Program-made: the position numbers and the translations under genes
Shown: piece after piece, positions 1,514 through 36,390 of the stretch
How the letters are laid out: every line of letters begins with the position of its first letter
Position numbering within the stretch: position 1 is the stretch's first letter
IMG/VR virus record: IMGVR_UViG_3300025806_000079
Coordinates: 1-37,221 of that record
Source: a virus
Direction: 5' to 3' (one strand)
Length of the DNA stretch: 37,221 bases
Notes under the pieces: generated by a model
Database searches by the model: none
The model's input: only the letters and a program-made list of their open reading frames with translations
What the model was told of the DNA's origin: nothing

Positions 1514-3369
1514 GTGGCATATCCAATCAAGTACACTTTTAATCCTGCACCAGCCGTACTCGACCCGACTCCGTCAACGTCAATAGTCATCAAAGCATTG
1601 TCTGCTAACGCTGGCCCTGCACCGCCAATGACTGCTGCCGTAGCTGCCGTTCCAGAGGTCTTTTCTCCAGCGTCGATTGTCAGCTTCGTAGTCAAAACCG
1701 TACTTCCCGCCTCATTTATATCGACGGTCAAAACTGACCCAACGGGGGCTGTAGTCACCCCAGCCTTAACGCCCGTCAACGTAAACGCATAGGGCATATG
1801 GAATGTAACTACCGCTGTACCCGCTGCCGTAGCTGTGACTTCATCGCCGCAAGCTATGGCTATCGTCTGCTTTAGGTGGGTCTGATCTATAGCAACAACT
1901 GAGCCTGTCTTGGTTAAGCCAGTGCCTACTGTGATCTGTGAAAGGTTTACGCCTACCCAGTTGTCAGGGCTGTTGTCATCACTTACGAATTGGATTTGTG
2001 CATTAACGTCTGTCAGAGTAATGTTAGAAGCTGATCCGTTTAGAGTGTCTGTTCCAGATCGTGCAAAGATTAAAGAGTTAGATGCAGACGTTTTCTGAAA
2101 CGCATACTTAACACCTTCACTTGTTCCAATGGCAGGGAGTGTAACTGTAATGTTGTTGCTTGATGTATCACAAAGATAGTATGTGCCATCAGCAGATAAC
2201 GCTGGAGAAATAGCTGCACCTGTCTGATTTACAACAGTACTATATATCTGCCCAGATGCCGCAACGGATGCACTAGCCGCCGCATTAGCTGCATACTTCT
2301 TTGCAGAGAACACACCGCCAGCTACCGCTGTTCCTTCCGTAAATGAACTGCCACCACCTAACGCCCATTGCTTAGATGATCCTGTAGTGAGAGTAGTTCC
2401 TAGTGCATACTCTTTACTAGAAAATTCACTCGTATCAACAGCGGCCCCTGTTGTAGTAGCCCACTCTTTTGCGGCTCCACGACTGCCAGTGCTGGTGACG
2501 TTTGTACCTCCAACCGCCCAAGCTTTAGAACTAAAGTCTGAACCAGTTACAGCACCATTAATTTTAGTTGCGTAGTTGGTTGCGAGTGTTGCTTGAGCCG
2601 TTGCTTTAGCTGAGTAATGTAAAGCAGAGAATGTTCCTGCTCCAGCAACAGTATCGTCTTCTGGATTAGAAGCCCATTCTTTCGCAGCTCCTTTGCTCGA
2701 AGTGTCGGTTATGCCCGTTCCACCAACAGCCCAAGCTTTTGAACTGTGGTCACTACCCGCCGCAGCGCCGTCAACTTTAACAGCATACGCTACTGCCGTA
2801 GCAGCAGAGGCTACTGCTTCATCTGCTTTGGTAGAAGCAGTAACCGCACTTGCAGCCGCCGCAGTCGTAGCAGCGCCGGGGTCATCAGCTTCTTCTAATG
2901 CAGTTAGCCCAGCGTTCCAACGAAATGTTTTTAAGGCAACAGGTGTAGGAAGCGTTGTGTCTACTCCTGATGTATCACCATCAGACAGTTTAAACGATCT
3001 ATCAACCTCTGTGTTGATTTGTTGCGCCATCATTGTTGCCCGATCAAGCTCTTGCTCAACTAGGTCAGACGGAAAAGCGTCGTTCTCAACTAGGTCTAGC
3101 CCTTGTGTAAGGCCAACTTCACGAATAATAACTAGTGTTTCTCCAGACGCAGGAGCTGTACCCATAGTAACCGTGCCGCCAGACGCGTCACCCGCACCAG
3201 TAATAGTGTAATGCGTGGTAATAGTCTTTGTTGTCTCAGCGCCTGTGCTGTTTACAACAAGAATAACCTTGAGGTCTGCGTTGCTGAAAAACAAGTAACC
3301 AAACGAAAAAGCGGTTGTGCTTCCGTTGCCTGAGTAACTTACGCGGTTTACTGTAGAGCTTATGGTCAT
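1510..3369 (-). CDS. Tail fibre protein with T7 gp17-like N-terminus
   Basis: A 619-residue virion protein. The first ~150 residues (SYSGNGSTTAFSFGYLFF, then LVIIREVGLTQGLDL, then LDRATMMAQQI) match the tail-attachment domain of T7-type fibres. Residues ~165-385 form an Ala/Ser-rich shaft built from degenerate repeats of the form GSDxSSKAWAVGGT followed by GAAKEWA. The last ~110 residues (TFHMPYAFTLTGVKAG, then VLTVDINEAGSTVLTTKL) are a beta-rich module common at the distal ends of phage fibres, probably the receptor-facing part. RBS AAGGAA precedes ATG 3369. The 38-bp gap upstream contains a GTTTAAAC site (3386-3393). The stop overlaps the next gene. Fibre identity is secure; the receptor is unknown. 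Confidence 0.85.
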   Translation of the reverse strand: MTISSTVNRVSYSGNGSTTAFSFGYLFFSNADLKVILVVNSTGAETTKTITTHYTITGAGDASGGTVTMGTAPASGETLVIIREVGLTQGLDLVENDAFPSDLVEQELDRATMMAQQINTEVDRSFKLSDGDTSGVDTTLPTPVALKTFRWNAGLTALEEADDPGAATTAAAASAVTASTKADEAVASAATAVAYAVKVDGAAAGSDHSSKAWAVGGTGITDTSSKGAAKEWASNPEDDTVAGAGTFSALHYSAKATAQATLATNYATKINGAVTGSDFSSKAWAVGGTNVTSTGSRGAAKEWATTTGAAVDTSEFSSKEYALGTTLTTGSSKQWALGGGSSFTEGTAVAGGVFSAKKYAANAAASASVAASGQIYSTVVNQTGAAISPALSADGTYYLCDTSSNNITVTLPAIGTSEGVKYAFQKTSASNSLIFARSGTDTLNGSASNITLTDVNAQIQFVSDDNSPDNWVGVNLSQITVGTGLTKTGSVVAIDQTHLKQTIAIACGDEVTATAAGTAVVTFHMPYAFTLTGVKAGVTTAPVGSVLTVDINEAGSTVLTTKLTIDAGEKTSGTAATAAVIGGAGPALADNALMTIDVDGVGSSTAGAGLKVYLIGYAT

Positions 3370-3407
3370 TGTGTGGGTTCCTTACGTTTAAACAATCTTA
3401 TCATATA

Positions 3408-5873
3408 CTACCGAAAAGCACTACTCAAATCTGGCGCTCTTGTAGGTAGTAGTTTTCCAGCTTCCCACCACATACCTCGCCCTTCCTCGTCTAAGTCATT
3501 AATTTTCTTAGTTGCTCTGTTTTGAAAATTAGGGTCTAAATCTTCAAGTATAAATTCATCTACAAGTGATGTTATGGCTCTATCTACATACCAAAGGTGT
3601 GAACCGGGAACTATTTTTCTTAGCGTTCCAACAAGTTGCTGGACAATCTTAGTGTCCTCACCTTGTAGTGCGCTTTGTGCGTTTCCTACAGTTAACTCTG
3701 CAAAACCATCCAATGCAGCGGCAGGAGCGCCTAACAAACTTTTAAAAAACCCGCCGCCGTATCTGTTTACATCGGATGTTAAGAAGTCTGCAAACAAAGA
3801 TAACCCCCCACCCCGCGCTACTGCGTCAGGCCAAAACGTAGGGTCTGTAAATGGGTTCATACTGCGAGGGTCTTCACCACGGGACATGACGTGAATTTGT
3901 TCAGATAGTGCGCCAGCAGCGGTAAGATATGCTAAAAACGTAACAAAATATTTACCTTTATTTAAAGCACCTTCCCGCGCCATACCTTCTGCAAGATGTT
4001 TCATCATTATAGTAATAGGGAAATTTTTAAATACGGCAACTGATCTAAGCACTTCACCTTTAAAAGTACCAGCGGTAGTGCCACCAATCAACACTGATTT
4101 AGCTTCAACAGACGACGTAGGAACTGCCATCTCTAATAAGTTCTGATTGTACGCGGTAAATTTTGCAAAAAGATCATTTGCTACGTCTGCACTTATATCT
4201 GTGCGATGGATCATGTCGTTAAGGTTTAAAAATTTTGCGCCTTTGTGGTCAGTTAATTCTGTTTGACGCACAATATCCCAATCTTCAGCGGTAATACCTG
4301 CACGTTCCATACTCTCTTTAAAATCTATTTTATCAAAAGTTTTGTTTACGTTACGCGCATAACTACCCATCATCTCTAATGAGAATGTGTTTCGGGACAT
4401 TTGAGTGTGATGGCTTAACAAACTTAAACGCAGAGCGCCTTCGGTAAGTCGTTGCGCCCATTTAGGGCCAAACGGGTCGCCACCAAAACGTTCGGCTGCT
4501 GCTAAATTACCTAAAGCTAAATCATTAACTACACCCATCTGACGGGCAAACTCACGGTCAGCTTTACTAGCTGGGTTAATCATTTTTAAGTAGGAAGCTA
4601 TGGGAGACATAGCTTTGTGTCCAGACAAACGTGACACAGATTTCATAGTAGCTATGTCGCCCGGTGCAGCAGAAAAAATAGCTTTACCTAATAGCGCGCC
4701 GGGTAGTAGCGTCCGTATTGTACTCATAACAATTCCAACGTTATTAAGTTCAACATCTGCGTTACGTCCGGTTACAAAACCAAACACACTATCTGAGTCA
4801 TTTATATCTCTTGACACACTGTGTAACAATTTTTTTTGAGTTTTAAGGTCACCTTTTGTTTGCGCTTCATCTACCAATTGGCTTGTTCGCATCTTTACAG
4901 CAGCCTCTAAACGGCGTTTCATTATAGAGGGGTTAGGTCCAAGCACTTGTAGTTGAGCTAAATCGCGTGACGCTTGGCCCATGTAGTCAATAAGCTGATC
5001 AATTAACGTTCCTCGACCATACTCACTTTGCATACTAGACCACGATTCCGGTGTTTTATACCGCAAAAAACGTTTGTTAGTTAAACGGCTGGCTACCCCT
5101 ACTTCTGGGCGATAGTCAAAAGTAATTTTGTTTAAACCGCCTGTAGTTATTGTTGTATGTACTTCACCTAAAACACGAACGCGGTCACTCTCTTCTATTA
5201 TTTTCCCGCCGTTAAATTGTTTCATGTGTTCCCAATCTAACACACCGTCACCATTATGGTCCTCAATCCACTTATCTCTGTTTTTAGACATTTTACCAAC
5301 GTCGTGCATTTGAGGCGCGTGAAAATTGGGGTCTTCTACCATGTCTACCCCTGCGGCTTTAGCCAGACGAGCAAAGTCCGCGTACATTTCTTTAGTAGCT
5401 TCAGATAACCCTTTTGCAGCCGTGCTTTTTGTGTCCTTACCGTATAACTCTTTAATATAATCGTCTAAACCCGCTTTTGAACGGAATGCCCCAATTACCC
5501 GTGTGTCGTATTTATCAAGCATATCAACCATTAAACCGTTAAAACGCCCTAAATAACCACGCGAAACATATTCAACTTCCGAATATATCTTAGTTAACTC
5601 TTTACCGGGGCGATTTTTTAATTTCATAATACGGTCAGTTAGTCGTATCTGTACCTGCGCGTCACGAATGCGGCGAGCTTGATCCGCTGAGTTTTTAAAA
5701 GTTTTTGCTTCTATTAGTTCGGCGGCGGCAGCACTTTCGGCTCGTTCACGCGGAACACCGTCACCTAACATCTCATTAACGCGGCTGTCAAATTGATCTA
5801 GTAACACTTTAGCGTCTTCATGCTTTGCGTGTTTGCTACCAATACTTTCTACAATACAATTTCTATACGACAT
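3408..5873 (-). CDS. Large internal virion/ejection protein (821 aa)
   Basis: Third and last of three very large proteins encoded between the gp14-like core protein and the tail fibre, the place where T7-like phages encode gp15 and gp16. No enzymatic motif was recognised. It is mostly helical and charged, with hydrophobic stretches near residues 390-410 (LPGALLGKAIFSAAPGD) and 625-655 (FPITIMMKHLA, then YFVTFLAYLTAAGALS). Such stretches would suit a protein inserted into the host envelope during DNA ejection. Start ATG 5873 lies one base past the upstream stop (TAATATG). The ejection role is inferred from position and size. A large polyvalent-protein-type domain is possible but not shown. Confidence 0.65.
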   Translation of the reverse strand: MSYRNCIVESIGSKHAKHEDAKVLLDQFDSRVNEMLGDGVPRERAESAAAAELIEAKTFKNSADQARRIRDAQVQIRLTDRIMKLKNRPGKELTKIYSEVEYVSRGYLGRFNGLMVDMLDKYDTRVIGAFRSKAGLDDYIKELYGKDTKSTAAKGLSEATKEMYADFARLAKAAGVDMVEDPNFHAPQMHDVGKMSKNRDKWIEDHNGDGVLDWEHMKQFNGGKIIEESDRVRVLGEVHTTITTGGLNKITFDYRPEVGVASRLTNKRFLRYKTPESWSSMQSEYGRGTLIDQLIDYMGQASRDLAQLQVLGPNPSIMKRRLEAAVKMRTSQLVDEAQTKGDLKTQKKLLHSVSRDINDSDSVFGFVTGRNADVELNNVGIVMSTIRTLLPGALLGKAIFSAAPGDIATMKSVSRLSGHKAMSPIASYLKMINPASKADREFARQMGVVNDLALGNLAAAERFGGDPFGPKWAQRLTEGALRLSLLSHHTQMSRNTFSLEMMGSYARNVNKTFDKIDFKESMERAGITAEDWDIVRQTELTDHKGAKFLNLNDMIHRTDISADVANDLFAKFTAYNQNLLEMAVPTSSVEAKSVLIGGTTAGTFKGEVLRSVAVFKNFPITIMMKHLAEGMAREGALNKGKYFVTFLAYLTAAGALSEQIHVMSRGEDPRSMNPFTDPTFWPDAVARGGGLSLFADFLTSDVNRYGGGFFKSLLGAPAAALDGFAELTVGNAQSALQGEDTKIVQQLVGTLRKIVPGSHLWYVDRAITSLVDEFILEDLDPNFQNRATKKINDLDEEGRGMWWEAGKLLPTRAPDLSSAFR

Positions 5874-5874: not shown

Positions 5875-7851
5875 TTATATCCCCGTTGGGCAAGTAGATA
5901 AGGCTTTTAACAACTCGTCATCTTGCTTACCTTGGTCTAAGTATTCGCGTAGTGTCACCGTGCCGCCTGTTTCTGCGTCCGTAATCTGAATGATTGTGTT
6001 GTCTAAATCGACATCACCGATACCACGCCCTAAATTTATAGTGTTTTTTTCACTATCTATAGAACTCATGTGTTCTGCGGTTTGTGTATTACGCATTTCG
6101 TCTAACTTTGGTTCTATATCTTTTAATTCTTTAGCTGCTTTTGCGGCGTAGTCTTGCAAAGGCATACCATTTATAGTGTGACGGTCTAGCGCACTTACAA
6201 GCGATTGTGCTGGACGTTCAGCGTCAATTTTTTGACGTTGCATAATGTCCTCAACAGCAACGCGACCTGACGGGCTAATCTTAGGTGGCGCAAATTCTGG
6301 GCGGGGTAGCGCGTCTCTACCTTGCTTTAACAACGCAGATATCTCTGGAGCAATGTCACGTAATTCGTTATCCGCAGCTTGAAGCGCCTCACGAGTAACT
6401 CGTTCTTTAGCGTTTTCTGCGCTAGTTAGCCGCAATTCTTGCTCAACTAGTGCTTCACGTTTAGCATTAATTTCTTTCTGTATTTTCTTTTTGTTCTTAG
6501 CTGACGCGCCTCTTGCCTTAGTTTCAAGTGCAGCTAACTCATCTTCAGCGCGTCCTATTGTTTGCGCGACTTCTTGCCCCGGTAACTCTTGACGTATATC
6601 GTCTAAACGTCTACGCTCTTCTGCAATTTCAGTGCTTAAACGCTCATACTTGTTAATTAAATCAGGGTTCTTATTACGTGCGTACTCTATTACAGCCGGA
6701 TTTTTATTCATTTCGGTAATCGCCGGGTCGCCCTGCACAGCTTCAAAATCTGGTTTAGTATATATTGGTGTTGTATTAGGCATTCGTGTAGACCCACTAA
6801 GGTCGGCTTTTAACTTGTTAAGCATAGGTTCCATTGCATCCATGAGTTTTTCATGGTGTAAATTAAGCCCAGTATCTGTGTCGCCGTAAGGGTTTGCTCT
6901 GGCAAACAGAATATTGCTTTGCTCTGCAATAATAGCTGCCTGATCGGAAGGTTTAAACAAGTTAGGGTCTAATTTAATTACTGCATCTTCGTAGGCTTTT
7001 TGACGCGTCTGTTGTAAATTTACTTGGTTAGTTTTTTGTAACATAGCGCGTCCAAGTGCGCGTTGCGGTGCTACTTGTTGCTCTATTGCCCGCCCTGCTA
7101 CTGGCGCAAGTTCACCAGCGCCTCGTAGTAGCCCCGCACCCGCTGCCGCAAAACCTACTTGTGTTAATTTTTCACCTGTTGTTGTACTGACACCCATTAA
7201 CGCTTGGCGTTCTGAAACTCCTGTAAATTGGTTAACGGCTTCAATTCCGCCACCTGCTGCAATTTCAGTTAATATACGCTTAGTAACTGTTTGACCTACG
7301 CCGCCTATACCTAACGTAGCAAAATTAAGAAAATTAGTGCGAGGGTTCATTGAGGCTACTAAACCTGCGCTGAACGCACCTAACTTACCAGTAATACCAG
7401 CGGACTCGCCAATTCTTGCTGCGACCCCCCGAAGGTCTTTACTGCGGGATTTAACACCGCTCCAAAGTTCACCAAAAAGTTTAACGCTGTTATCTTCTGG
7501 GTTAGCTTCTCTGTATGCTTGTAACCTTTGATTTGCTTGCTCAAATTGAGCGTATTGTTCCGTTAAATTTGAGTCTACTTCTGTATCTTTACCCTCTTCT
7601 TGACGTGCGCCGTTAAGGTAGTTGCTGCGAAACAACTCATTTTCATATAATTTTTCGCCAGTTGCTGCAAAATATGACGCGGCGTTAGCTATGTAATCAT
7701 CTTGTATAGCAACTTCTAGACCATTAGCTGCCATGCGGAGATTATCATCGTTTAATGTAGCTACAAAATTTTCTGTAAAATCTGTAGTTTCATTCCACTG
7801 ACCGGGTACGCCACCTATAACGTCTAACGGTTTGCTCTGTAAAAAACTCAT
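5875..7851 (-). CDS. Internal virion protein with coiled coil (658 aa)
   Basis: Middle member of the internal-protein trio. Residues ~145-250 are Gly/Ala-rich and weakly hydrophobic (FSAGLVASMNPRTNFLNFA, then GFAAAGAGLLRGAGEL), suggesting membrane interaction. Residues ~390-500 form a long charged coiled coil (AEERRRLDDIRQEL, then KKKIQKEINAKREALVEQEL). No lytic transglycosylase motif was found. The start overlaps the upstream stop as ATGA at 7848-7851. An in-frame GTTTAAAC (6951-6958) encodes the Phe-Lys of NLFKPSD. The role in DNA ejection or core assembly is inferred from gene order. Confidence 0.6.
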   Translation of the reverse strand: MSFLQSKPLDVIGGVPGQWNETTDFTENFVATLNDDNLRMAANGLEVAIQDDYIANAASYFAATGEKLYENELFRSNYLNGARQEEGKDTEVDSNLTEQYAQFEQANQRLQAYREANPEDNSVKLFGELWSGVKSRSKDLRGVAARIGESAGITGKLGAFSAGLVASMNPRTNFLNFATLGIGGVGQTVTKRILTEIAAGGGIEAVNQFTGVSERQALMGVSTTTGEKLTQVGFAAAGAGLLRGAGELAPVAGRAIEQQVAPQRALGRAMLQKTNQVNLQQTRQKAYEDAVIKLDPNLFKPSDQAAIIAEQSNILFARANPYGDTDTGLNLHHEKLMDAMEPMLNKLKADLSGSTRMPNTTPIYTKPDFEAVQGDPAITEMNKNPAVIEYARNKNPDLINKYERLSTEIAEERRRLDDIRQELPGQEVAQTIGRAEDELAALETKARGASAKNKKKIQKEINAKREALVEQELRLTSAENAKERVTREALQAADNELRDIAPEISALLKQGRDALPRPEFAPPKISPSGRVAVEDIMQRQKIDAERPAQSLVSALDRHTINGMPLQDYAAKAAKELKDIEPKLDEMRNTQTAEHMSSIDSEKNTINLGRGIGDVDLDNTIIQITDAETGGTVTLREYLDQGKQDDELLKALSTCPTGI

Positions 7852-10151
7852 TCAAAACTCTCGTAGTAGTTTTCAAGTTTGTTAAGGTCCATTATTAAAA
7901 CTTTATTAGAACCGGGGTGGCGTAAATACTTGTTAGTACCCTTATGTTGCACACGATATTGACCATCACCAACGTACCTAAAATGACTGTTTGATAGTAA
8001 TTTTTCTCCAGTAACCGTGTTACCTTGTTGATTAACCGGAACAACCCCATCAAAGACTTGCAACATAATTTCTTCGTTATCTAAACTTGTTACTGCGTTT
8101 TCAAAATATTCTTCTGTTTTTCCTATAGGTAAGACTAGTCGGCTGTTGTTACGAGGAATAATAGTTCCGCCATGAACTTCTTTTATTAACTTTTTTACAT
8201 CACTATTAGTAATTTTAACAGTACCTGATGGCAAACCTCGTTTAACATACAAACCTTCAAGAGCAGCATACATACCTTCTTTAACATGATTAGGCATATT
8301 CATAAAAGCATCACCTATTTCTGTGTTAAACACTTCACGCAAACCAGACGACGGTAAATTTTTAGAACCATTAGGTTGTTCTAACGTTTTTCGACCTTGC
8401 TCAATTTCTAAAGCAATTGTTAAGTGTTGATCGTGGGAAGCCATACCTGCTACATACCCTGTACCAGAAGCTCCTTTTTCGCTTAATTCATTAAACACCT
8501 TGTACGAGTCTGGCCCACCCGTACCGACTATAGTGCGATACAATTCTACGCGTTGATTAGCATCCATTTCAAATATTGCTGTCTGAACTTGTGAAAGCTC
8601 TTCTGGCAGAAAAAATTGATAGTTTTCAACTCCATATTTATTTTTAGCCTCGTTTGCAGCAGTAAAACGGTCTTTTAAACTACTGGAAGATTTAATATCT
8701 ATTGGTGGTATATCCATGTTTCCTGATTGGGCAGCCCATGAAATCGGGCCTTTTTTAGTAAGTACGTTTTGCATTTCTTTTAAATACGCGCTATGCAACT
8801 TTATTGTTTCTGCTTCAACCGTAGAAATGCCATCTGTTCTTTCTGCATGAAGACTAAAAGCAGCAACATAAGCTTGCGTATTCGCTAAAGTTAAGTCACT
8901 TTTAGCTACCCAACCTCTGTGCAATCCTTCGTTTACTAAATTAGTCATTTTGCGTAATACGTCAGGGTCATCTATACTTGGGATTAGAGCTTGTATCATA
9001 ACCACGTCTTTTATAGGTAATTCACCTAGCTCTGCAACTGGCAAAAGTGCGGCTATCATATCACGTCCGGCGGCATTAGCTTCTGTAGTTTTCTTTGATA
9101 AAATACTACGAGCAGCTTTAACTTGCATAAACTCTAATTCAGTGGCTGGTTGTCCCTGCTGCGGCCCCGCAGTTAAAAAAGCGTTTACTTCTGGCACGGA
9201 CATTTTACTAGCTTCAACACGCCAATCTTTAAACGCATGAAGCCGGGTTAAACTTGCGTGAGCTATGGGGTCGTCTGACAACTTCCCTAATGTTGTAAGT
9301 TGTGTCATCTCACTGCTGCTAACACCAAAACCTCCAATAAGTCTTTCACGTACAGAATTAATTCCTATCCTAAAAGCGGTGTTACTTTTGTTTTGTTGGT
9401 TTAATGCTTTAGCGTCTAATTGATTTTTCTTGTTGTTAGCTGAAAGGGTAATTTGACTTAATCCCGCTGGACTTAACTGTGTCTGCCAGTAATCCCCTGT
9501 AAGCATTTCTATAACACTATCAGGGTCACGGTGTACCTCACCGACTAATGTGCGGTAAGCAAGGTCTTCGCGAAACTCGCGTTCAACTTCAAGTTTTGCG
9601 TCGTCTGATATACGCGAATCTTTAATTGTTTCTAATCCTTGTTCAAGACTTCCTGTAAACATTTGAATGTCTTGGTACGCAGCGTTAATGCCAGCAGAAA
9701 GCGTATTCTTAGTATTTAAAACGTTTAAACGTGTTCTAGACACTGTTTCAAAGTCTACTGCTTTCCCGACCAGAGTACCCTTTAAACTTTCAAGCTGTTT
9801 TGCTAAATGTTTTTTAGCCGTTGAAGTAAGCTTATCGCTCCCTAATTTTGTAGCCGACCATGTATCAAAATCGTCTTTTACCGTTTTAGTAAAACCATCA
9901 GCGCCCGCTACCGCAGCGGCTTCGCTAGTCTTCAGTCTTTCGGCCCACTCGCTCCGACCTTCCATGTAAGTTAAATCAGCGTAGCTTTTACTGTCGCGCT
10001 CTGTTTTCTCTGCTACAAAATCACCAAAACCGGATATATCTTGCCCCGCGCTAATAAGCCCTTTACCACCCCCACCCATTGAGGCAACATCGGCGCGAGC
10101 AGTTTGCGGGACAAATCTAACATTACCTGCTGGAGTTATTTTGTTAGCCAT
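7848..10151 (-). CDS. Internal virion protein (767 aa), gp15-like position
   Basis: First of the three large internal proteins, directly after the gp14-like gene, with RBS AAAGG before ATG 10151. The N-terminus (PAGNVRFVPQTARADV, then GLISAGQDISGFGDFV) matches the style of phage core proteins at this locus. The body is a long helical, charged protein with no signal peptide and no catalytic motif I can recognise. The last ~80 residues (YVGDGQYRVQHKGTNKYLRHP) look like a small beta domain. It contains an in-frame GTTTAAAC at 9723-9730. It probably forms part of the inner core or ejection tube; this is inference from synteny. Confidence 0.6.
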   Translation of the reverse strand: MANKITPAGNVRFVPQTARADVASMGGGGKGLISAGQDISGFGDFVAEKTERDSKSYADLTYMEGRSEWAERLKTSEAAAVAGADGFTKTVKDDFDTWSATKLGSDKLTSTAKKHLAKQLESLKGTLVGKAVDFETVSRTRLNVLNTKNTLSAGINAAYQDIQMFTGSLEQGLETIKDSRISDDAKLEVEREFREDLAYRTLVGEVHRDPDSVIEMLTGDYWQTQLSPAGLSQITLSANNKKNQLDAKALNQQNKSNTAFRIGINSVRERLIGGFGVSSSEMTQLTTLGKLSDDPIAHASLTRLHAFKDWRVEASKMSVPEVNAFLTAGPQQGQPATELEFMQVKAARSILSKKTTEANAAGRDMIAALLPVAELGELPIKDVVMIQALIPSIDDPDVLRKMTNLVNEGLHRGWVAKSDLTLANTQAYVAAFSLHAERTDGISTVEAETIKLHSAYLKEMQNVLTKKGPISWAAQSGNMDIPPIDIKSSSSLKDRFTAANEAKNKYGVENYQFFLPEELSQVQTAIFEMDANQRVELYRTIVGTGGPDSYKVFNELSEKGASGTGYVAGMASHDQHLTIALEIEQGRKTLEQPNGSKNLPSSGLREVFNTEIGDAFMNMPNHVKEGMYAALEGLYVKRGLPSGTVKITNSDVKKLIKEVHGGTIIPRNNSRLVLPIGKTEEYFENAVTSLDNEEIMLQVFDGVVPVNQQGNTVTGEKLLSNSHFRYVGDGQYRVQHKGTNKYLRHPGSNKVLIMDLNKLENYYESFE

Positions 10152-14431: not shown

Positions 14432-14459
14432 GGTGGAGAAGTGTTTAAACTTCTCCACC
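14432..14459 (-). terminator. Hairpin between the 153-aa virion gene and tail tubular A
   Basis: A perfect 11-bp stem, GGTGGAGAAGT / ACTTCTCCACC, encloses a 6-nt loop, and a GTTTAAAC site (14443-14450) spans loop and right arm. On the minus strand it is followed only by GTTTCTTT. It may be a leaky terminator or RNA-stability element that lowers tail expression relative to coat. The structure is seen; the function is inferred. Confidence 0.55.
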
Positions 14460-20418: not shown

Positions 20419-20438
20419 AGTTGTCTCTCCATAATAAC

Positions 20439-20494: not shown

Positions 20495-20539
20495 AAGTTT
20501 AAACAGGGAGGTGTAAAACGAAAGGGGGGTATCGCTTTA

Positions 20540-23065: not shown

Positions 23066-23665
23066 ATGAATATCATTCACTCAACAAAAGAACAGTGGTT
23101 ATCCAACGCGGTTTTAGAATTAGAAAACGAATTCAATCTTGAAGGCCTTCATATGCCCGCAAAATGGCGCATCTCGTCGGGCTTTCCTTCTAAGGGCGGA
23201 CTAGCTGCAAAGAAAAGAACAATAGGTCAGTGTTGGTCACCAGAAGCTTCAAAAGACGGTACGACAGAAATCATCATCTCAATTACGCAAGATGATGAAA
23301 CAAAAATACTTGGCGTTATAGCTCATGAAATGTGCCACGCGGTTTTAGGTATTAAAGCGGGCCATGGTCCACTATTCAAGAAACTAGCAAACTCAATAGG
23401 TTTAGTTGGCAAAATGACAGCGACAGAAGAAAGCGAAATCTTTTTTGATCGTATCGTTGCAATGTTGGGGCGTTTGGGTGGTTTCCCACACGCGGCGTTG
23501 GACGCGTCAATCGGTATCAAAAAACAATCAACGCGGATGATTAAAGTAACGTGTAACGATGAAATGGTGGGTTTAGACTGTGGAATGATTTTCAGAACAT
23601 CCGCAAAATGGACCGAAAATACTTTACAATGCCCACGGTGCAAAAGTGATACGACAATTGGTTAA
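23066..23665 (+). CDS. SprT-like zinc metalloprotease
   Basis: 199 residues from ATG 23066, preferred over an upstream TTG (23024) because the leader repeat with its ribosome site directly precedes it. Zinc-protease motif HEMCH is at 87-91 with a third ligand candidate at His100 (GHGPLFKKLA), the SprT/Spartan layout. A C-terminal zinc ribbon has cysteines 163, 172, 189 and 192. In cells this family cleaves proteins cross-linked to or bound on DNA. A phage copy among early genes may remove host or defence proteins from DNA, which is inference. All catalytic residues appear intact. Confidence 0.8.
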   Translation: MNIIHSTKEQWLSNAVLELENEFNLEGLHMPAKWRISSGFPSKGGLAAKKRTIGQCWSPEASKDGTTEIIISITQDDETKILGVIAHEMCHAVLGIKAGHGPLFKKLANSIGLVGKMTATEESEIFFDRIVAMLGRLGGFPHAALDASIGIKKQSTRMIKVTCNDEMVGLDCGMIFRTSAKWTENTLQCPRCKSDTTIG

Positions 23666-23680: not shown

Positions 23681-23725
23681 TGGCACCGTTTAAACGCACG
23701 GTGTCATTAAGAAACAATCGGTTTC
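23681..23725 (+). other. Paired hairpins in leader cassette 1
   Basis: Stem TGGCACCGT / ACGGTGTCA (23681-23689, 23698-23706; one G-T pair) has GTTTAAAC across the loop edge. It is followed by GAAAC/GTTTC (23711-23715, 23721-23725), then the leader repeat and the next start. There is no T-run, so it is more likely an RNA processing or stability element than a strong terminator. Confidence 0.5.
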
Positions 23726-24629: not shown

Positions 24630-24676
24630 TATGGCAGCGTTTAAACACGTTGCCATATGGGAAGCGATTTTGCTTC
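24630..24676 (+). other. Paired hairpins in leader cassette 2
   Basis: Stem TATGGCAGCGT / ACGTTGCCATA (24630-24640, 24647-24657; one G-T pair) has TTAAAC as loop, so GTTTAAAC forms its apex. It is followed by GAAGC/GCTTC (24661-24665, 24672-24676). The arrangement repeats cassette 1 with changed arms, so pairing rather than sequence is kept, which supports an RNA role. Confidence 0.55.
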
Positions 24677-25061: not shown

Positions 25062-25360
25062 AAAATCAAGTAGAAACACGGGCGGCAATTCGCACAAAGT
25101 TTGTGGGTCCAACTAATACGCGGGGGCCACGTATATCAGTTTGCGATTATAAATACAGTGATACGCCAGCGCGTAGAATTTTTGTTAGTTGGGATTATTC
25201 ACTAGACATTAATGAAAATCACGCGGTTGCCGCTGAACAATGGGTATCAAAATTTCTTAATATTGGTGAACCGTTGATCAAAACCATTTTAGACCGGAAA
25301 GCATTGGTTTTTGATGGTTATTATTATTGGGCGTGGAATTTTAAAGAACAAACCGTTTAA
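25058..25360 (+). CDS. Conserved phage hypothetical protein (100 aa)
   Basis: Contains IRTKFVGPTNTRGPRISV and a later segment LDINENHAVAAEQWVSKFL, a pattern I recognise from short proteins in many phages and plasmids with no known function. The C-terminus is aromatic (DGYYYWAWNF). The stop codon TAA lies inside a GTTTAAAC site (25355-25362). A terminator follows. Confidence 0.6.
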   Translation: MKNQVETRAAIRTKFVGPTNTRGPRISVCDYKYSDTPARRIFVSWDYSLDINENHAVAAEQWVSKFLNIGEPLIKTILDRKALVFDGYYYWAWNFKEQTV

Positions 25361-25373
25361 ACACACTTCAAAT

Positions 25374-28166: not shown

Positions 28167-29426
28167 TTATCCCTCTAAATGCTGTTTAAACAGCTTCATC
28201 CATTCACCCCGGTCTTCTACTCTACTCATCACCAGCTCGTCCAGAGTGTCGTTACAAACCAGCGTCGTTACATTAACTTCCTCAGTCTGCCCCGTGCGCC
28301 AGACACGCCCGATAGCCTGTTCTTTATTGTCTCTACTCCACGGCGGCTGTAAAAATAACAGGTCCGCGTACTCATGTTGCAGACCATCAACCCCGTGTGA
28401 CATTGACTGTATCTGCACACACCTGACGTTATCCGGTGTCGTCAATACGAGTTGTTTTCCTTGTTCAACAAATTCATAAAAAATAATTCCGGTGTTACCG
28501 TCCAACGCGTCAGCCCAAGAGCGCATAGCATCAACGCGGCTACGGTCTAAGTAAACAACTTTGTCGTCATCCTCATACATAAACCCCGAAGCGATCTGCC
28601 GAAGCTTGCCTGACTTTACAGCCTCATTCGCAGCCTCAACGTCACCAGCAATCATGTGTTTCTTCATGTCGTTATAGACGACCCGCGTATCATCTGGCAT
28701 ATCAAACGTGATGACGTGTTCACGGCAAGGTGGCAGGTCATTGGCCTTGGTATCTTCAACGAGGTGGACGAGAGGCGCGATCTTAGCGGCGATTAACTCA
28801 TCTGCGCCGTCACGTAGAGTCCAGTTGTAACCTTGGTAGTCTGAATAGAAATACTGGTCCAGATACTTTTGCTTGTTGGTCCCAAGGTATTTTGGTGACA
28901 AGATACGACACATACTATAAAGTTTTTCAAAATTTTGTGACACGGGTGTTGCTGTCATCCCGACGCGCCACTTAAAACAGTCGGCCTTCTTCTTGGACCG
29001 CATACCCGCAGTTTGTTTACCCGCTGCCTTGGATAGCTCGTCGATAATGATACCGTCGCAGCCATGCTTAGTATTCAGTAACCACTCAAGGTTATTTAAG
29101 CTAATTATAATAACGTTCATACCGCCCATATCTAAATGAACAAAGCGTTTAACTGAACTACCTGTCAAAGATGTGACGCGCAGGCCCTTCAAGTGTTCCC
29201 ACTTCTCAACCTCTTTACCCCAGACGTTATTCTCAACCACTTTGGCAGGTGCAGCGACGATGACGCGGTTCAGCACACCCGCGTCGATCAACTCCTTAAT
29301 AGCAGTCAGACAAATAACCGTCTTACCTGCGCCCGTTGGGGCAACCAGTAATGTGTAATCTTCACTGTATAACCGCGAAATAGCTGTTTGTTGCTTCGTG
29401 TTCAAAGATTTCTCTGATAAGGTCAT
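28167..29426 (-). CDS. SNF2-like DEAD/H helicase (419 aa)
   Basis: ATG 29426 is chosen because a perfect AGGAGG lies 6 bases upstream. Superfamily 2 motifs appear in order: Walker A APTGAGKT (29-36), DEXH-type IIIDELSKA, motif III VGMTATP, and C-terminal EQAIGRVWRTGQTEEVNV, the SNF2/Rad54 signature. The size is that of the minimal phage SNF2 proteins found with family A polymerase and VRR-NUC genes. It probably translocates on duplex DNA and remodels recombination or replication intermediates. The front overlaps the VRR-NUC gene by 65 bp. An in-frame GTTTAAAC encodes part of the C-terminal LFKQHLEG. Confidence 0.85.
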   Translation of the reverse strand: MTLSEKSLNTKQQTAISRLYSEDYTLLVAPTGAGKTVICLTAIKELIDAGVLNRVIVAAPAKVVENNVWGKEVEKWEHLKGLRVTSLTGSSVKRFVHLDMGGMNVIIISLNNLEWLLNTKHGCDGIIIDELSKAAGKQTAGMRSKKKADCFKWRVGMTATPVSQNFEKLYSMCRILSPKYLGTNKQKYLDQYFYSDYQGYNWTLRDGADELIAAKIAPLVHLVEDTKANDLPPCREHVITFDMPDDTRVVYNDMKKHMIAGDVEAANEAVKSGKLRQIASGFMYEDDDKVVYLDRSRVDAMRSWADALDGNTGIIFYEFVEQGKQLVLTTPDNVRCVQIQSMSHGVDGLQHEYADLLFLQPPWSRDNKEQAIGRVWRTGQTEEVNVTTLVCNDTLDELVMSRVEDRGEWMKLFKQHLEG

Positions 29427-29679: not shown

Positions 29680-31664
29680 TTGCCGTACCTCTTTCCTGAT
29701 GCAACACCATCTGTTGCCAGTGGCAGACCGTCAGCCCACCAAGGTTTTTGTAACATAATGTCGTTTAAACACTCTCCGTCAGCCTCACTACCCCGACCTA
29801 TTATTTCGTCATGCACATGACCAACCACTCTAAGCCCCGCCGCATCAGCTTTAACTAATGCCTCACGTAGAAAGTCAGCCGCAACAGCTTGAACAGAATT
29901 TTGAAACAGCAACGCACCCCGTGCGTAAACACGTATAGGTTTAGCCCCCGCAGCAGGTTTAAAGTGTGATTGAAACGTAACGCCTATACGTTCTTCGCCC
30001 CACGGGGTTTCGTACTGTTCAAATTTCGGTTTAGGATACGCAAGAAGCCGACCAGACGGTAATTTACACCACAAAAAATTTACGCCGTCAGAGTTGTAAA
30101 CAACGCGACCAATCTTTTTGTCTACACCCGGCTCTAAGACCGCGCTTGTAATCGTCTCATCGTAATCGTTCCACGTCTGTTCAGCCCACGGGTTCGCTTT
30201 ACGCCAGCGGACAACAATATCTTTGGCTTGTTCTTCTTCAAAGATCACACCGTAATTTTTAGCCATACCAATCAACGCGTTGTGACCGCCACCAAACTGT
30301 AAGGACAACTCAGCGATCTTACCTGACTGTCTGGTGTTTTTAGCCTCTGTTTCCTTCGCAACAACCGCAGCCATTAAAACGTTCTCATCTAAATCAAACA
30401 TATCGGCAGCGGTAACGACATACAAATCTTTACCTTGTTTAAACAACTCTAACTTACGATCACCAGATATAGTTTTTGCCATCCACGGAGCTACACGGCC
30501 TTCAATGCTGGACCAATCAACCCAATATAAACCATCGTCGTGGGCTATCATTGCCCGCAACAGTCTAGCCATTGTGTTTGCAGGGCTGTCAATCTGTAGG
30601 TTTTGTGTAATATCTTTAATAAGTTTTTCTGCTTCTTCGTAACTAAAAACGTCACGGCGAATGTTGTGCGGTTGTAAACCTTTACCACTGAAACGACCTG
30701 TGCGCCCCGCACCATTCCACAGAAACGTGTTGTAGACCCGCCCCAAACATTGTTGATGAGCCGCAACAGCAAATTTCTTGAGCGCGGAGGAACCAGCGTT
30801 GTCGATAAATTCAAGCAAAGCTCTAGCGTCTGCATCTAAATCATCCCGATTTAACAAGTATCGCCTGTGTTCACCATCCAATGATATTTTTACCTCTCCG
30901 TCTTTATAGACTTCAAGCAATTTTATTTGTGGTTTAGTCAGCTTTGGAAACAACCAAGCGTCACGGGCTTTACGTTGCGTTGCCTTAGTCATAGCACCAT
31001 CTGTCAACTCAGCTATCTGACGGTTAGCGTCTTCGGCAACTTCTTTTGTGTAGCCTAATGCCGCCTCACAAAATGCAACGTCAATTGGCAAACCGCGCTG
31101 ATTAATGCGGCAGTTTAAATGATATTCTGCCCACTCGCTGTTGGTCAGTGTGCGTAAACATTTCACTGCTGCTCGCATAATCTCAACGTCAGACAGGCAA
31201 TAGTCCTTCATTATCTGGTCATCACCTTGTTTAAACACACTCTCATGACCGGGAGAGCAGTATTCACGGATCAGCCGTGCGCCCTGTGGATTTTTACGGT
31301 AAGGTAGCTCCAGCCCAACAGCTAAAGCGTCCAGACCACCCGCAAAACCGTTGGTAAGCCCTATCGCCATGCTGCAACGCCATTGCTCTAGCTTTGGTGG
31401 TGTAAAATGGTAGTCGTTTGATATTACCCACTCAAATAAGTGACGCTCAAACTCCGCGTTGTGGGCCATAATCGGCTCACCGGATTTGAAATAATCTGTA
31501 ACACTTTTTGGGAACGGTTCGTAGTGCCACCAGAACTCAATGTCGCCATCATCAAACGCGTAGGCCATACATATAACTTGGGTGCTAGGGTCTTCTGCGT
31601 ACCGCCGAAGACCGTGAAAGATTAAATCGCAGTTGCTGCGGGTTTCTAAATCAATGTATAGCAA
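29676..31664 (-). CDS. Family A DNA polymerase with 3'-5' exonuclease
   Basis: 662 residues from TTG 31664. A TTG 15 bases earlier lies inside the GAAAGGG ribosome site, and homologues begin near MLYIDLETRS. Exonuclease sites are Asp5/Glu7 (IDLET), the HNAEFERHL segment (~68) and Tyr155/Asp159 (YCLSD). Polymerase motif A is YWVDWSSIEGRVA (Asp383). Motif B is TRQSGKIAELSLQFGGG. Motif C is HVHDEI (His618-Asp619-Glu620). There is no 5' nuclease domain. It is the replicative polymerase, in an operon with primase-helicase and ssDNA-binding-like protein. In-frame GTTTAAAC sites are at 29763, 30437 and 31229. Confidence 0.93.
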   Translation of the reverse strand: MLYIDLETRSNCDLIFHGLRRYAEDPSTQVICMAYAFDDGDIEFWWHYEPFPKSVTDYFKSGEPIMAHNAEFERHLFEWVISNDYHFTPPKLEQWRCSMAIGLTNGFAGGLDALAVGLELPYRKNPQGARLIREYCSPGHESVFKQGDDQIMKDYCLSDVEIMRAAVKCLRTLTNSEWAEYHLNCRINQRGLPIDVAFCEAALGYTKEVAEDANRQIAELTDGAMTKATQRKARDAWLFPKLTKPQIKLLEVYKDGEVKISLDGEHRRYLLNRDDLDADARALLEFIDNAGSSALKKFAVAAHQQCLGRVYNTFLWNGAGRTGRFSGKGLQPHNIRRDVFSYEEAEKLIKDITQNLQIDSPANTMARLLRAMIAHDDGLYWVDWSSIEGRVAPWMAKTISGDRKLELFKQGKDLYVVTAADMFDLDENVLMAAVVAKETEAKNTRQSGKIAELSLQFGGGHNALIGMAKNYGVIFEEEQAKDIVVRWRKANPWAEQTWNDYDETITSAVLEPGVDKKIGRVVYNSDGVNFLWCKLPSGRLLAYPKPKFEQYETPWGEERIGVTFQSHFKPAAGAKPIRVYARGALLFQNSVQAVAADFLREALVKADAAGLRVVGHVHDEIIGRGSEADGECLNDIMLQKPWWADGLPLATDGVASGKRYGK

Positions 31665-32392: not shown

Positions 32393-32401
32393 TTTAATTT
32401 T

Positions 32402-32436: not shown

Positions 32437-32439
32437 CGT

Positions 32440-33579
32440 TTACTTCATTATATCTTTTAGATGACCCTGTACGTCTGTCACAATAACCGCTGGGGATGCG
32501 TGATCCGCAGGGGCTAGTGTTGTACCGGAACTTTCAGACACAATGAAATCACTTAGGTCAAGATCGACCTTTTTCTTTTTTATAACCTTCTCCATTGCGG
32601 GTGGGGTTAATAGTGTAGATTTAAACACGTCTTGTTCGGACAACTCTTTGCAATTAGCCAGTGCTTTAGCTGTTGCCATATCGTCAATCCACTTACGAGT
32701 GGCGCGTTTGTCGATGATCTTCCAACCGTCCAGAGCCACACCCCGGTTAAGCTGCATATACATCTCTTCTTTCATCATCTTCAGCCAATCTTCGACTTCA
32801 GTGATGACGTTTGCCGCTGCTTGCAGATCGTTACGTTCTTTAGCTCCTAACAACGACGATGCCATAACGTTTAAACGCTTTGTCTCACAGTACGGAGCCG
32901 CTGGACACCAGTTACAGTGCGAACCGGGGGTTCTAACATCTGTTTTTAAATAAACCTGATCCAGAGCTTTGTTAAATTCTGTCTCAAACGTGTTCAAATC
33001 TTCAATTGAACACTCCCATGTATCGACAACACCTTTTACTTGGGGTTGCACGATGACAAGAACTAGTTTTTCAACCTTACTAAACATATCTGAGGTCTTA
33101 CTGTCTCGCCTAGCACACATAGGGTAGAACATGAGTTGCGCGTTATTCTTTGCTACAACTTTATTTCTGCCGAATTTGTAATCTAAAGACAGCAATGTTT
33201 TGCCGTCTTCTGATAAACCCAACAAGTCTGTTGAGCCGCCGACACTACCTTTTATGTATTGAAGAAAAGGCTCAACCTCTAGCTGGTCTATATCCAGATC
33301 GTCCATTATTGTGTTGGTAACGGTGTGCGCGATGTTGGATAAGTCTAAGTCGTCAACGCCAAACTCTCGCGATTGTCCATTCTCTTTATATACAAAGCCT
33401 AAATAATCTTTAGGCGCAGTGCCTTTCTTCTGGCACAACTCCATAATCTCATGGTGCATACTACCATCTATAGCAGCTTGTCCTGCGGGTCTTCTGGGGA
33501 TGTTTTCTGAAGCTTTAATCCAACCGGGACATTTAAGTGTCCGTGCGGCAGTAGAGCCGCCTACTTTTAAATGTTTCAT
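32440..33579 (-). CDS. Cas4/DUF2800-like PD-(D/E)XK nuclease
   Basis: 379 residues. Nuclease core: His43 region (DGSMHHEIMELC), Asp118 (GGSTDLLGL) and Asp133-x-Lys135 (SLDYKFGR), then NAQLMFYPMCAR. Four cysteines, Cys17 (KCPG) with Cys222-x2-Cys225-x5-Cys231 (HCNWCPAAPYC), fit the 4Fe-4S staple of Cas4/AddB-type exonucleases. It is encoded in the replication operon ahead of the ssDNA-binding-like protein and likely resects DNA ends for recombination-dependent replication. ATG 33579 overlaps the previous stop (ATGA), and its ribosome site ends a CTGAAT tandem repeat. Confidence 0.83.
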   Translation of the reverse strand: MKHLKVGGSTAARTLKCPGWIKASENIPRRPAGQAAIDGSMHHEIMELCQKKGTAPKDYLGFVYKENGQSREFGVDDLDLSNIAHTVTNTIMDDLDIDQLEVEPFLQYIKGSVGGSTDLLGLSEDGKTLLSLDYKFGRNKVVAKNNAQLMFYPMCARRDSKTSDMFSKVEKLVLVIVQPQVKGVVDTWECSIEDLNTFETEFNKALDQVYLKTDVRTPGSHCNWCPAAPYCETKRLNVMASSLLGAKERNDLQAAANVITEVEDWLKMMKEEMYMQLNRGVALDGWKIIDKRATRKWIDDMATAKALANCKELSEQDVFKSTLLTPPAMEKVIKKKKVDLDLSDFIVSESSGTTLAPADHASPAVIVTDVQGHLKDIMK

Positions 33580-34376: not shown

Positions 34377-34557
34377 TGCGGCGGGAGTGTTACATGATTT
34401 GTCTGGCATTCCTGTGGCTGTTGCGTGGGATATGATTAACAGGAAAGTTGTTCTACATGAAGCTGTAGTCTATGAGCGGGATGAAAACGAAGCCCGTTTA
34501 AACGCTGTCCACAGTAACGCGTATAACAGAGAGATAGCTGCGAGGTGGGGCGAATGA
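34318..34557 (+). CDS. Hypothetical protein (79 aa)
   Basis: ATG 34318 is chosen for its GAAAGGGAAAGTA leader. The frame overlaps the end of the pyrophosphohydrolase gene by 59 bp. The product (NIIQGLARDVWEKRKTQNSA, then GIPVAVAWDMINRKVVLHEA) is a small alpha/beta protein with no recognised family. An in-frame GTTTAAAC (34496-34503) encodes the Leu-Asn of EARLNAV. Confidence 0.6.
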   Translation: MNIIQGLARDVWEKRKTQNSAAGVLHDLSGIPVAVAWDMINRKVVLHEAVVYERDENEARLNAVHSNAYNREIAARWGE

Positions 34558-35457: not shown

Positions 35458-35953
35458 ATGTTAGGAACAACTCACGCTCTTGTTTACGCCTACGCACTAA
35501 ACCCTTAACAATCCTACCGCCAGCCCTACGCCATTTAGGAAACTCGTCAGCAGCTTCTTCGTGAAGCCCTCTGTTTAAACGCATCCGCATTGTAGACTTC
35601 TGAAAATTCCCTGACCCAACATTATATATGAATGAGCATAAGCTAGAAAACATATTCTCTGTCAGTTCCGTTTTGACAAGTTTTCTAATTGCCGCCTCAG
35701 AATGACGCACTTCTCTGAGGAGCAGATATTCGCCCTGCTCCTCCGTAATATCAGGATGGTCAAGGGTAACAGCATTGCCATCACGATCCCATGTGCTGCC
35801 CCAACCGATTGTAGCTCTGGCTGCACTGCACAGGTAGACGGACTGTCTCCATCCTTCGTAGTGCTTAATAAGCTCCAGACCAGCTTCATTTATGTGACCG
35901 TCCCATACTTTAGGGCCGTGTTTCTTTACTATCATCTCAAAGAAATCTTTCAC
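35456..35953 (-). CDS. Endolysin, GH24 (T4-type) lysozyme
   Basis: 165 residues. The E-x8-(D/C)-x5-T catalytic pattern of phage lysozymes is intact as Glu33 (HYEGW), Cys42 and Thr48 (ATIGWGS). The Asp position is Cys, as in a subset of phage enzymes. Later, FSSLCSFIYNVGSGNFQKST and WRRAGGRIVKGLVRRRKQE complete the fold. There is no signal-anchor or signal peptide, so release needs the holin encoded just before it. Start is GTG 35953, with a GTGA overlap. It hydrolyses the peptidoglycan MurNAc-GlcNAc bond. Confidence 0.9.
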   Translation of the reverse strand: MKDFFEMIVKKHGPKVWDGHINEAGLELIKHYEGWRQSVYLCSAARATIGWGSTWDRDGNAVTLDHPDITEEQGEYLLLREVRHSEAAIRKLVKTELTENMFSSLCSFIYNVGSGNFQKSTMRMRLNRGLHEEAADEFPKWRRAGGRIVKGLVRRRKQERELFLT

Positions 35954-36390
35954 TTTTTATTAAAACTACGTGATCCAAACCAGAAAGATACGCAAGCAGC
36001 AAAGACAGGAGCCATCGTATCGGTGTTCCAAAGTAGTTTAAACATATCGTTATCAATGAACCCAAACGCCAGCAAGAATGTTAAGATAACAAACTCAAAG
36101 AACAAAAAGAATGTAATGAGTGGGCGCACTGATGCACTTAAATTTATACACCACTGGCTAGATTTGCGTGTGATGCTGGAGTGTTCTTTATGTATGGTTT
36201 CACTCTCAGCGATGTCAGCGGATATGTCCATCATCTGCATCTTCTGAGCGCCAATTTTAATCTGTTGCTCAAGCTGCTTGTCCATCATCTTGAGTTCGTG
36301 GGCTTGGTCACGCTTCTCTTCAAAAAATCCAAGTATCTTTGGGAGAAAAGAAGTACCAAAACCTAAGACGCTGCTGATTAATGTAATCAA
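35950..36390 (-). CDS. Holin, three-span GTA/phage type
   Basis: 146 residues from TTG 36390, with AAAGGAG 8 bases upstream. Hydrophobic segments are N-terminal (LISSVLGFGTSFLPKILGF), central (RPLITFFLFFEFVILTFLLA) and C-terminal (PVFAACVSFWFG), with a charged coiled linker (ELKMMDKQLEQQIKIGAQKM). This matches the 3TM holin family first described in gene transfer agents. It forms the inner-membrane hole that releases endolysin. Its start overlaps the upstream lipoprotein stop (TTGA). Confidence 0.82.
   Translation of the reverse strand: MITLISSVLGFGTSFLPKILGFFEEKRDQAHELKMMDKQLEQQIKIGAQKMQMMDISADIAESETIHKEHSSITRKSSQWCINLSASVRPLITFFLFFEFVILTFLLAFGFIDNDMFKLLWNTDTMAPVFAACVSFWFGSRSFNKK

Follow-up and report, generated by a model that had tools for sequence, protein, structure and literature searches.

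Dispersed copies of an octameric palindrome accompany a SprT-like protein family in phage genomes and are candidate binding sites for it

The IMG/VR virus record IMGVR_UViG_3300025806_000079 comprises 37,221 nucleotides, and this whole stretch is referred to here as the window. It represents a podovirus-like phage with genes for a head-tail adaptor, tail proteins, a major head protein and a terminase, and also for a primase-like DUF5906 protein, an SNF2-type helicase, a DUF2800/PDDEXK protein, a lysozyme and a SprT-like protein of the family phrog_6361; a match to the family A DNA polymerases scored under the Pfam cut-off. Dispersed over these genes and the spaces between them is the palindromic octamer GTTTAAAC, the recognition site of PmeI. 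Its enrichment was proposed in an earlier reading of the window from its letters alone (the original prediction). In this study we describe the octamer and its association with the SprT-like protein.

We counted 27 exact copies of GTTTAAAC in the window, the same number as in the original prediction, with the first at 2988 and the last at 36036-36043 (Table 1). The guanine-cytosine (GC) content of the window is 44.7%, and Markov models built from it gave expectations of 0.82 (order 0), 1.7 (order 1), 2.2 (order 2) and 3.2 copies (order 3); the order-3 value, suggested earlier as a check, lies far under the count. Expectations were 3.9 at order 4, 8.2 at order 5 and 17.5 at order 6, the models of the highest orders including GTTTAAAC itself. 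The Poisson probability of at least 27 copies was 2e-16 at a mean of 3.22 and 1.6e-7 at a mean of 8.19. GTTTAAAC was the commonest 8-mer of the window and also showed the highest order-3 over-representation (z 12.3). Variants changed at an outer base were rare, as had been claimed, with 3+2 copies of GTTTAAAT/ATTTAAAC, 2+2 of GTTTAAAG/CTTTAAAC and 2+1 of GTTTAAAA/TTTTAAAC; the resulting 5, 4 and 3 are each within one of the 5, 3 and 2 given before. The flank preference YGTTTAAACR was likewise recovered, Y preceding 21 of the 27 sites, R following 25 and both occurring at 19.

The gene caller placed 19 sites inside genes, one at a gene edge and seven between genes, intergenic DNA making up 9.8% of the window. 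At least 20 of the 27 are intragenic, because the caller overlooked the lysozyme gene at 35456-35953, which contains the site at 35573. Eleven sites lie within 1510-22634 and 16 in the shorter remaining part. The hairpins described earlier at three sites were found as inverted repeats: the site at 14443 is the apex of a perfect one with arms of 11 nt, the site at 24639 is the apex of one with 91% pairing, and the site at 23688 overlaps one of 26 nt with 81% pairing. The TAA of the open reading frame ending at 25360 falls inside the site at 25355, as stated before. A terminator-like stem (20473-20495) does stop right before the site at 20497, but such stems near the window sites were not in excess (13 vs 14.2 in shuffles).

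When open reading frames were compared among contigs, the SprT-like gene was the sole gene of the window with homologues across many dissimilar viruses enriched in GTTTAAAC. Of 45 enriched contigs 25 had a member of its family, and of 14 non-enriched ones none had; all of these were chosen contigs and many were fragments. The runner-up families, both absent from the window, were found in 15 and 11 enriched contigs and in no non-enriched one; the former is a Toprim/DnaB primase-helicase and the latter has no Pfam match. As partners of the sites, the Toprim/DnaB primase-helicase was rejected, having no copy in the window and its relatives, and so was a primase or helicase, whose merged cluster occurred in 12 enriched but also in 5 non-enriched contigs.

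Records were also picked by a triple pattern, that is three GTTTAAAC within short gaps, which was sought in viral and in bacterial/archaeal contig collections. It was found in 72 stretches of viral contigs, where some loci reach 25 further sites per 10 kb. In bacterial/archaeal contigs at least 118 such stretches were found; the loci listed, which span up to 8 kb, held no more than 9 sites each, and at most 5 per 10 kb beyond the triple. As far as seen, high densities of GTTTAAAC are thus viral rather than chromosomal, which speaks against a host word of the HIP1 type. The only SprT-like carrier among the 118 bacterial-contig matches listed was L183, perhaps a prophage.

The profile of phrog_6361 matched in the window and in 26 of 35 records picked by site pattern, and in 2 of 36 relatives picked by portal or primase, G042 and G055, which are both enriched. 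Among pattern-selected viral records of at least 20 kb, all 15 dense ones had phrog_6361, as did 1 of the 22 sparse ones (Fisher p 1.7e-9), dense meaning at least 4 sites per 10 kb and both the density and the 20-kb cut-off having been picked after the data were seen. With all lengths pooled (70 pattern-picked records) it was found in 31 of 44 dense records, two of the 31 being ribbon-only matches, and in 1 of 26 sparse ones. Three records counted as negatives in the 37-record test, G079, G084 and G100 (loci L229/L241, L238 and L268), carry tandem GTTTAAAC arrays with a period of 22-29 bp near contig ends, and have neither phrog_6361 nor a genome-wide excess.

The association was also found in the reverse direction, by a search with the protein alone. 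A six-row SprT alignment was used, and the best 80 of 233 relatives were taken, many of them interrelated. These 80 viral loci hold 633 copies of GTTTAAAC vs 9.1 expected, and GTTTAAAC ranks first of the 256 octameric palindromes in 72 of them. Nine loci have fewer than two copies; five of these have at least two copies of GTTTACAC or GTTTAAAT, and L411, L412, L413 and L416 do not. Loci fetched by primase or portal (n=87, one of the sets being the best 80 of 123) were mixed, 24 having at least 3 sites, 18 having 1-2 and 45 none. Close relatives of the window therefore differ, some with the site trait and others without: L055 has 15 sites in 21.0 kb vs 0.43 expected, L026 has 0 in 21.6 kb, and enriched relatives were found at 52-57% GC.

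For the site profile we used the 67 of the 80 SprT loci with more than 3 sites per 10 kb (622 of the 633 sites), a selection that makes the densities conditional on enrichment. With the exact sites masked from the background, GTTTAAAC was 95-fold over expectation, GTTTACAC/GTGTAAAC 18-fold (249 vs about 13), GTTTAAAT/ATTTAAAC 13-fold, CTTTAAAC/GTTTAAAG about 4-fold and TTTTAAAC/GTTTAAAA about 2.7-fold, and the remaining one-base variants stood at 0.35 to 1.6 of expectation. The preceding base was C or T at 83% of the sites. A core tolerating so few changes gives a pattern as from a protein-binding site. In the same 67 loci the DnaA-box-like TATCCACA/TGTGGATA occurred 250 times vs 13 expected, and the palindrome GAACGTTC 78 times vs 8.6 expected after masking. 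Zero copies of TTATCCACA were found in the window.

Carriers of phrog_6361 include phages of Actinobacteria and Proteobacteria, the reported cyanophage Pan1 and many uncultured viruses. From 163 phage records with a match we examined 29 cultured carriers, several of them over their first 40-60 kb. GTTTAAAC was observed vs expected 17/0.04 times in R5C (Dinoroseobacter), 9/0.01 in Pan1, 7/0.08 in Mica, 4/0.09 in Persinger and 4/0.13 in Mano. Actinophages with phrog_6361 mostly use the non-palindromic GTTTACAC in place of GTTTAAAC, with observed vs expected counts of 39/0.05 in UNTPL (Streptomyces), 26/0.09 in Tweety19, 18/0.07 in Yang (Arthrobacter), 17/0.12 in Emotion, 17/0.03 in Caron, 14/0.03 in Percival and 13/0.22 in 4A. 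A rule of two half-sites (GTKT twice) was rejected, as GTGTACAC occurred 0 times vs 1.6 expected in seven actinophages. In Nanhaivirus R5C, R26L and Pan1 another word, GTATAAGC/GCTTATAC, was seen 13 times vs 0.39 expected.

The sites varied together with the C-terminal ribbon of the protein. Kieran, Coltrane and Epa5 have 0 copies of GTTTAAAC or GTTTACAC and CN2 has one GTTTACAC; in all four the peptidase motif is retained and the ribbon is without KxQxTR and RxSxK. They form two separate pairs on the protein tree (76 rows, from loci no shorter than 9 kb and some chosen loci), in a loosely resolved group. On this tree the site class changed 14 times vs a shuffled mean of 27.1. A prediction from the ribbon alone, set before counting, held for 10 of 10 further cultured carriers, not all of them independent (see below). 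The predicted positives had 41 (Henoccus), 40 (LazerLemon), 28 (Cen1621), 22 (IttyBittyPiggy), 22 (Zeta1847) and 16 (Floof) copies of GTTTACAC, and F_TK1718 was a thin positive with 2 GTTTAAAC in 29 kb; the predicted-absent BAjuniper and Eden had 0 and Franklin22 had one GTTTACAC. In all, seven cultured phages without KxQxTR and RxSxK have kept the protease and are without the sites (at most one GTTTACAC). G006 and G018 have dense sites and match over the ribbon-like end only (frames of 76 and 61 residues with three Cys), no peptidase part being detected in these frames; the two count as one lineage, because the ribbon is identical in both. Such short frames, at L303:14455-14682(-) and L220:9900-10082(+), match phrog_6361 over its ribbon end alone, have three Cys and show no in-frame ATG ahead of the ribbon; each may be a stand-alone ribbon, a remnant or a piece of a diverged gene.

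Conservation of the sites was followed in nine genome pairs, the window being in none of them as it had no suitable diverged partner. Sites were kept at homologous positions in 67-100% of cases, vs 17-62% for 8-mers of equal A+T count (binomial p 2e-3 to 4e-13, values that are too small because counts run both ways and pairs share genomes), and S-W6-S words (11 to 388 per pair) were conserved less than the sites in 9 of 9 pairs. The retention of sites that had been suggested as a check is thus seen in other viruses, above that of composition-matched words. Chance or composition was rejected as the source of the excess by the Markov counts, the variant enrichment and the positional conservation; the positive use of the exact palindrome put forward earlier is supported by the first and the last of these.

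In several cultured phages the sites, taken in both forms, were spaced more evenly than random. The coefficient of variation (CV) was 0.37 in R26L, 0.42 in Percival, 0.43 in Yang, 0.49 in Pan1, 0.53 in UNTPL and 0.55 in Tweety19, vs a null of 0.91-0.96. Evenness was weaker in Caron, 4A and R5C (CV 0.61-0.62, p 0.03-0.05) and not significant in Emotion (CV 0.68), G042 and G007. In the SprT loci the site density peaked 1-2 kb before the gene and 0.5-1 kb after it, with a further rise 4.5-6 kb after.

The protein of the window scored 31.6 bits with the SprT-like profile PF10263 (gathering cut-off 25.6), and five homologues scanned alongside were under the cut-off or without a match. The phrog_6361 profile, listed as of unknown function and without an attached DNA word, matched residues 3-196 of 198 against profile positions 4-200 of 203 (E 2.5e-37); an NCBIfam search gave weak matches under the cut-offs or none. 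The window protein holds HExxH and the third zinc ligand (H86, E87, H90, H99), each of these residues being present in at least 90% of 50 aligned rows, and therefore selection acts on the peptidase in most of the family. The AlphaFold model had a mean predicted local distance difference test (pLDDT) score of 90.2, weaker in the ribbon, and its top Foldseek match was Spartan (E 0.022, probability 0.95). A second fold comparison over residues 4-135 gave Spartan, selecase, abylysin and jannalysin at Z 8.2-8.4, only just over the level that the tool calls common, and Wss1 at Z 7.7. Close to the SprT gene in several enriched viruses are a CbbQ-like AAA protein and a CobT/VWA-type protein (L259:2318-3880(+) and L278:2536-4065(-)), families found in 8 and 7 enriched contigs and 0 non-enriched ones.

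We propose that the SprT-like protein of the phage itself probably binds GTTTAAAC, with the ribbon as the reading part and the peptidase as its cargo. That protein and sites belong together as a pair is very probable; a function as a tethered protease is put forward more tentatively, and is favoured because most homologues retain the catalytic motif. The Cys ribbon (KxQxTR ... CxxCGxxxRx[ST]xKW ... CP) would read YGTTTAMACR and carry the N-terminal Spartan-type zinc metallopeptidase. Selection would keep the words genome-wide, inside and between genes, loading the protein every roughly 0.5-5 kb. The tethered protease may then strip or cleave obstructing proteins, be they covalently trapped, of the host nucleoid or of host defence, and would ignore host DNA without sites. 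The excess of sites, their association with the protein, their covariation with the ribbon, their conserved positions and, in several cultured phages, their even spacing are shown by the statistics of the sequences, whereas binding by the ribbon, reading of the palindrome by a dimer and the action of the protease are inferred. The wider scenario, in which a sequence-addressed protease patrols site-marked phage DNA, word (AAA to ACA) and protein have shifted together, and some lineages have dropped the protease and others the address, is somewhat more doubtful than the tethered function itself.

Several observations weigh against this proposal. Two loci with a canonical-looking ribbon, L412 (20.6 kb) and L416 (13.0 kb), have 0 GTTTAAAC and 0 GTTTACAC, and L411 (5.9 kb) and L413 (7.3 kb) have a single GTTTAAAC each. 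Two portal relatives in which phrog_6361 was not found show a mild excess, G037 with 7 sites over 32.5 kb and G039 with 5 over 37.6 kb, and the carriers Arya (7 GTTTAAAC vs 0.98) and ep3 (3 vs 0.89) are weak. Sites are present in L308 (12 in 20 kb) without KxQxTR and in L284, where it is altered to RKDGVR. In L299, L290, L225, L210 and L259 the HExxH is gone, the ribbon is kept and sites are plentiful; because sites stay dense after this loss, it is not the protease that maintains them. The ribbon modelled alone reached a pLDDT of 68.9, and several actinophages lack the second Cys of the first pair, a classic zinc ribbon being uncertain because GSGY replaces CGY in them. Spacing in the window was no more even than random (CV 0.83, p 0.23) and the sites of G004 were clustered. 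Finally, the 10 predicted phages are partly kin of those that suggested the rule: the ribbons of BAjuniper, Eden and Franklin22 are of the same type as in Kieran and Coltrane, that of Floof as in Percival, and Streptomyces is the host of Henoccus and LazerLemon, as it is of UNTPL.

A role of the SprT-like protein in organising or blocking DNA has to be taken seriously, given that sites persist with some homologues that have lost the motif and that gene starts are preceded by an excess of sites. As a nucleoid-like protein it would bind the same sites, with the protease secondary or vestigial. The evenly spaced genome-wide sites of R26L, Percival, Yang, Pan1, UNTPL and Tweety19 fit such a role, as do the dense sites that survive loss of HExxH and a weak 10.5-bp phase signal in close site pairs (|z| 0.173 vs about 0.076 expected, uncorrected for relatedness). 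Selection on the peptidase residues, clustering near the gene in G004 and G028 and uneven spacing in the window, G042 and G007 speak against it, and we consider it unlikely, if the strongest of the alternatives. Slightly less probable is a control resembling stoperators, in which the protein on dispersed sites would block transcription, that of its own gene included. In the SprT loci 158 of the 622 sites lie at most 60 bp ahead of a start (10.9% by chance), 204 are intergenic where intergenic DNA is 16%, a 2-fold excess, and 18 of 106 distinct SprT genes, several of which are close kin, have one of the accepted words GTTTAAAC, GTTTACAC and GTTTAAAT at 23-58 nt ahead of their start. Of the 91 copies of GTTTACAC in Tweety19, Yang, Emotion, Caron and 4A, 60 have the direction of the gene nearest to them, and four other actinophages together have 66 forward and 22 reverse copies. 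Yet 364 of the 622 sites are intragenic, as are most in the window; no such excess was seen in UNTPL (19 with, 20 against the nearest gene), Henoccus (19/22 forward vs reverse) or LazerLemon (16/24), and codon use could also yield an orientation bias. In the G007-like set, sites were barely enriched ahead of starts (11.6% vs 10.2%).

That another phage or host protein reads the sites, phrog_6361 being a mere fellow traveller, is improbable. The association is seen in sequence alone, phrog_6361 was not detected in 9 of the 35 records picked by site pattern (all at most 18.5 kb long), and Pfam gave no match for 6 of 10 further families that are widely shared; but no second family as widely shared was seen among the compared contigs, the site form tracks the SprT tree, and loss of the sites coincides with loss of the ribbon across host phyla. 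That the sites serve restriction-modification or mark DNA by methylation, or that they are a host-wide palindrome of the HIP1 type, is very improbable. In the Arthrobacter phage Yang an annotated DNA methyltransferase gene adjoins the SprT gene, but 0 of the 10 annotated widely shared families match a methyltransferase or restriction enzyme (the 6 without a Pfam match among them), GTTTACAC is not palindromic, and the bacterial triple loci (at least 118) stay at 9 sites or fewer. Thus, among the options offered in the original prediction, a phage protein-binding site is favoured and a host-wide palindrome is unsupported, the dense loci seen being viral.

The features of the window are collected in Table 1. 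A 20-kb stretch of the window had no near match in the phage collection, and its portal is at most 56% identical to those of annotated phages (224 records, 89 of them named Vibrio and 23 Pelagibacter). Proteins of the window recur at 99-100% identity in G047 (L321) and L005, which come from other samples and jointly cover most window genes; this indicates the same phage elsewhere. The product of 33909-34376(+) has an above-cut-off match to PF18909, the dATP/dGTP diphosphohydrolase N-terminal family.

Table 1. The SprT-like gene, its proposed parts and the GTTTAAAC sites of the window.
Feature	Position	Strand	Remarks
SprT-like protein (phrog_6361)	23066..23665	+	199 aa; ATG 23066 after AAGGA ribosome-binding site; proposed site reader
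Zinc metallopeptidase motif H86 E87 H90 H99	23324..23365	+	from alignments
C-terminal Cys ribbon KKQSTRMIKVTC...CGMIFRTSAKW...CPRC	23519..23662	+	proposed site-reading part
Site 1	2988..2995		inside tail-fibre-like gene 1510-3369(-)
Site 2	3386..3393		intergenic, 16 bp ahead of start of gene 1510-3369(-)
Site 3	5130..5137		inside called gene
Site 4	6951..6958		inside called gene
Site 5	9723..9730		inside called gene
Site 6	13690..13697		inside tail gene
Site 7	14443..14450		intergenic, perfect inverted-repeat apex
Site 8	18948..18955		inside head-tail adaptor (portal) gene
Site 9	20497..20504		inside called gene 20206-20568(-), adjoining terminator-like stem
Site 10	22217..22224		inside small called gene
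Site 11	22395..22402		inside called gene 22290-22634(-)
Site 12	22711..22718		intergenic, upstream of 22634(-)
Site 13	23688..23695		intergenic, 22 bp past SprT-like gene
Site 14	24639..24646		intergenic, inverted-repeat apex
Site 15	25355..25362		across stop codon of 25058-25360(+)
Site 16	26363..26370		inside primase-like gene
Site 17	26563..26570		inside primase-like gene
Site 18	26971..26978		inside primase-like gene
Site 19	27535..27542		inside primase-like gene
Site 20	28184..28191		inside gene 28167-29426(-), 21 bp ahead of start of primase-like gene 25871-28162(-)
Site 21	29763..29770		inside DNA polymerase A-like gene
Site 22	30437..30444		inside DNA polymerase A-like gene
Site 23	31229..31236		inside DNA polymerase A-like gene
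Site 24	32869..32876		inside DUF2800/PDDEXK gene
Site 25	34496..34503		called intergenic; overlapped by small open reading frames
Site 26	35573..35580		inside lysozyme gene 35456-35953(-)
Site 27	36036..36043		inside called gene 35702-36247(+)

Two known systems of dispersed words can be compared with the one described here. HIP1 (GCGATCGC) of cyanobacteria occurs once per 1131 bp in Synechocystis 6803 and is held to be maintained by selection (PMC6604393). GTTTAAAC is likewise an octameric palindrome found about once per kb and far over expectation (27 vs 3.2 in the window), whereas HIP1 is chromosomal, belongs to the host and carries methylation sites, and GTTTAAAC goes with a single viral gene, in viruses that infect many different hosts. 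The L5-type stoperators of cluster A mycobacteriophages are more than 20 short dispersed sites with one phage protein as reader, a two-domain repressor; each is an asymmetric 13-mer that follows the direction of transcription and lies in a promoter or a short intergenic space (PMC9283540). Many sites dispersed over a phage genome are common to both systems, reading by a single protein being presumed here, but the present sites are 8-mers, more than half intragenic, linked to a SprT-like protein and spread over many phage groups. The likeness to Spartan/SPRTN, Wss1 and SprT lies in the PF10263 domain and the fold (Spartan 6mdw, Z 8.4 over 101 residues). In the open-access literature searched, as far as its accessible text goes, we found neither a sequence-specific genome-wide address for Spartan/SPRTN, Wss1 or SprT nor phage site statistics for GTTTAAAC; no report of over-represented PmeI sites in phage genomes, or of a motif in cluster AZ phages, was found there either.

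With these results the phrog_6361 family gains a DNA word and a testable partner, and direct testing is possible because the carriers include the cultured phages R5C, Percival, Tweety19 and UNTPL. If the protein acts as a roadblock or in a nucleoid, it would still represent a new family of DNA-binding proteins with dispersed sites and a recurring target. If the tethering is true, the sites would constitute a self/non-self address for a protease on DNA, of a kind not found in the accessible text of the open-access literature searched, and the phages would offer natural pairs of ribbon variants and target words.

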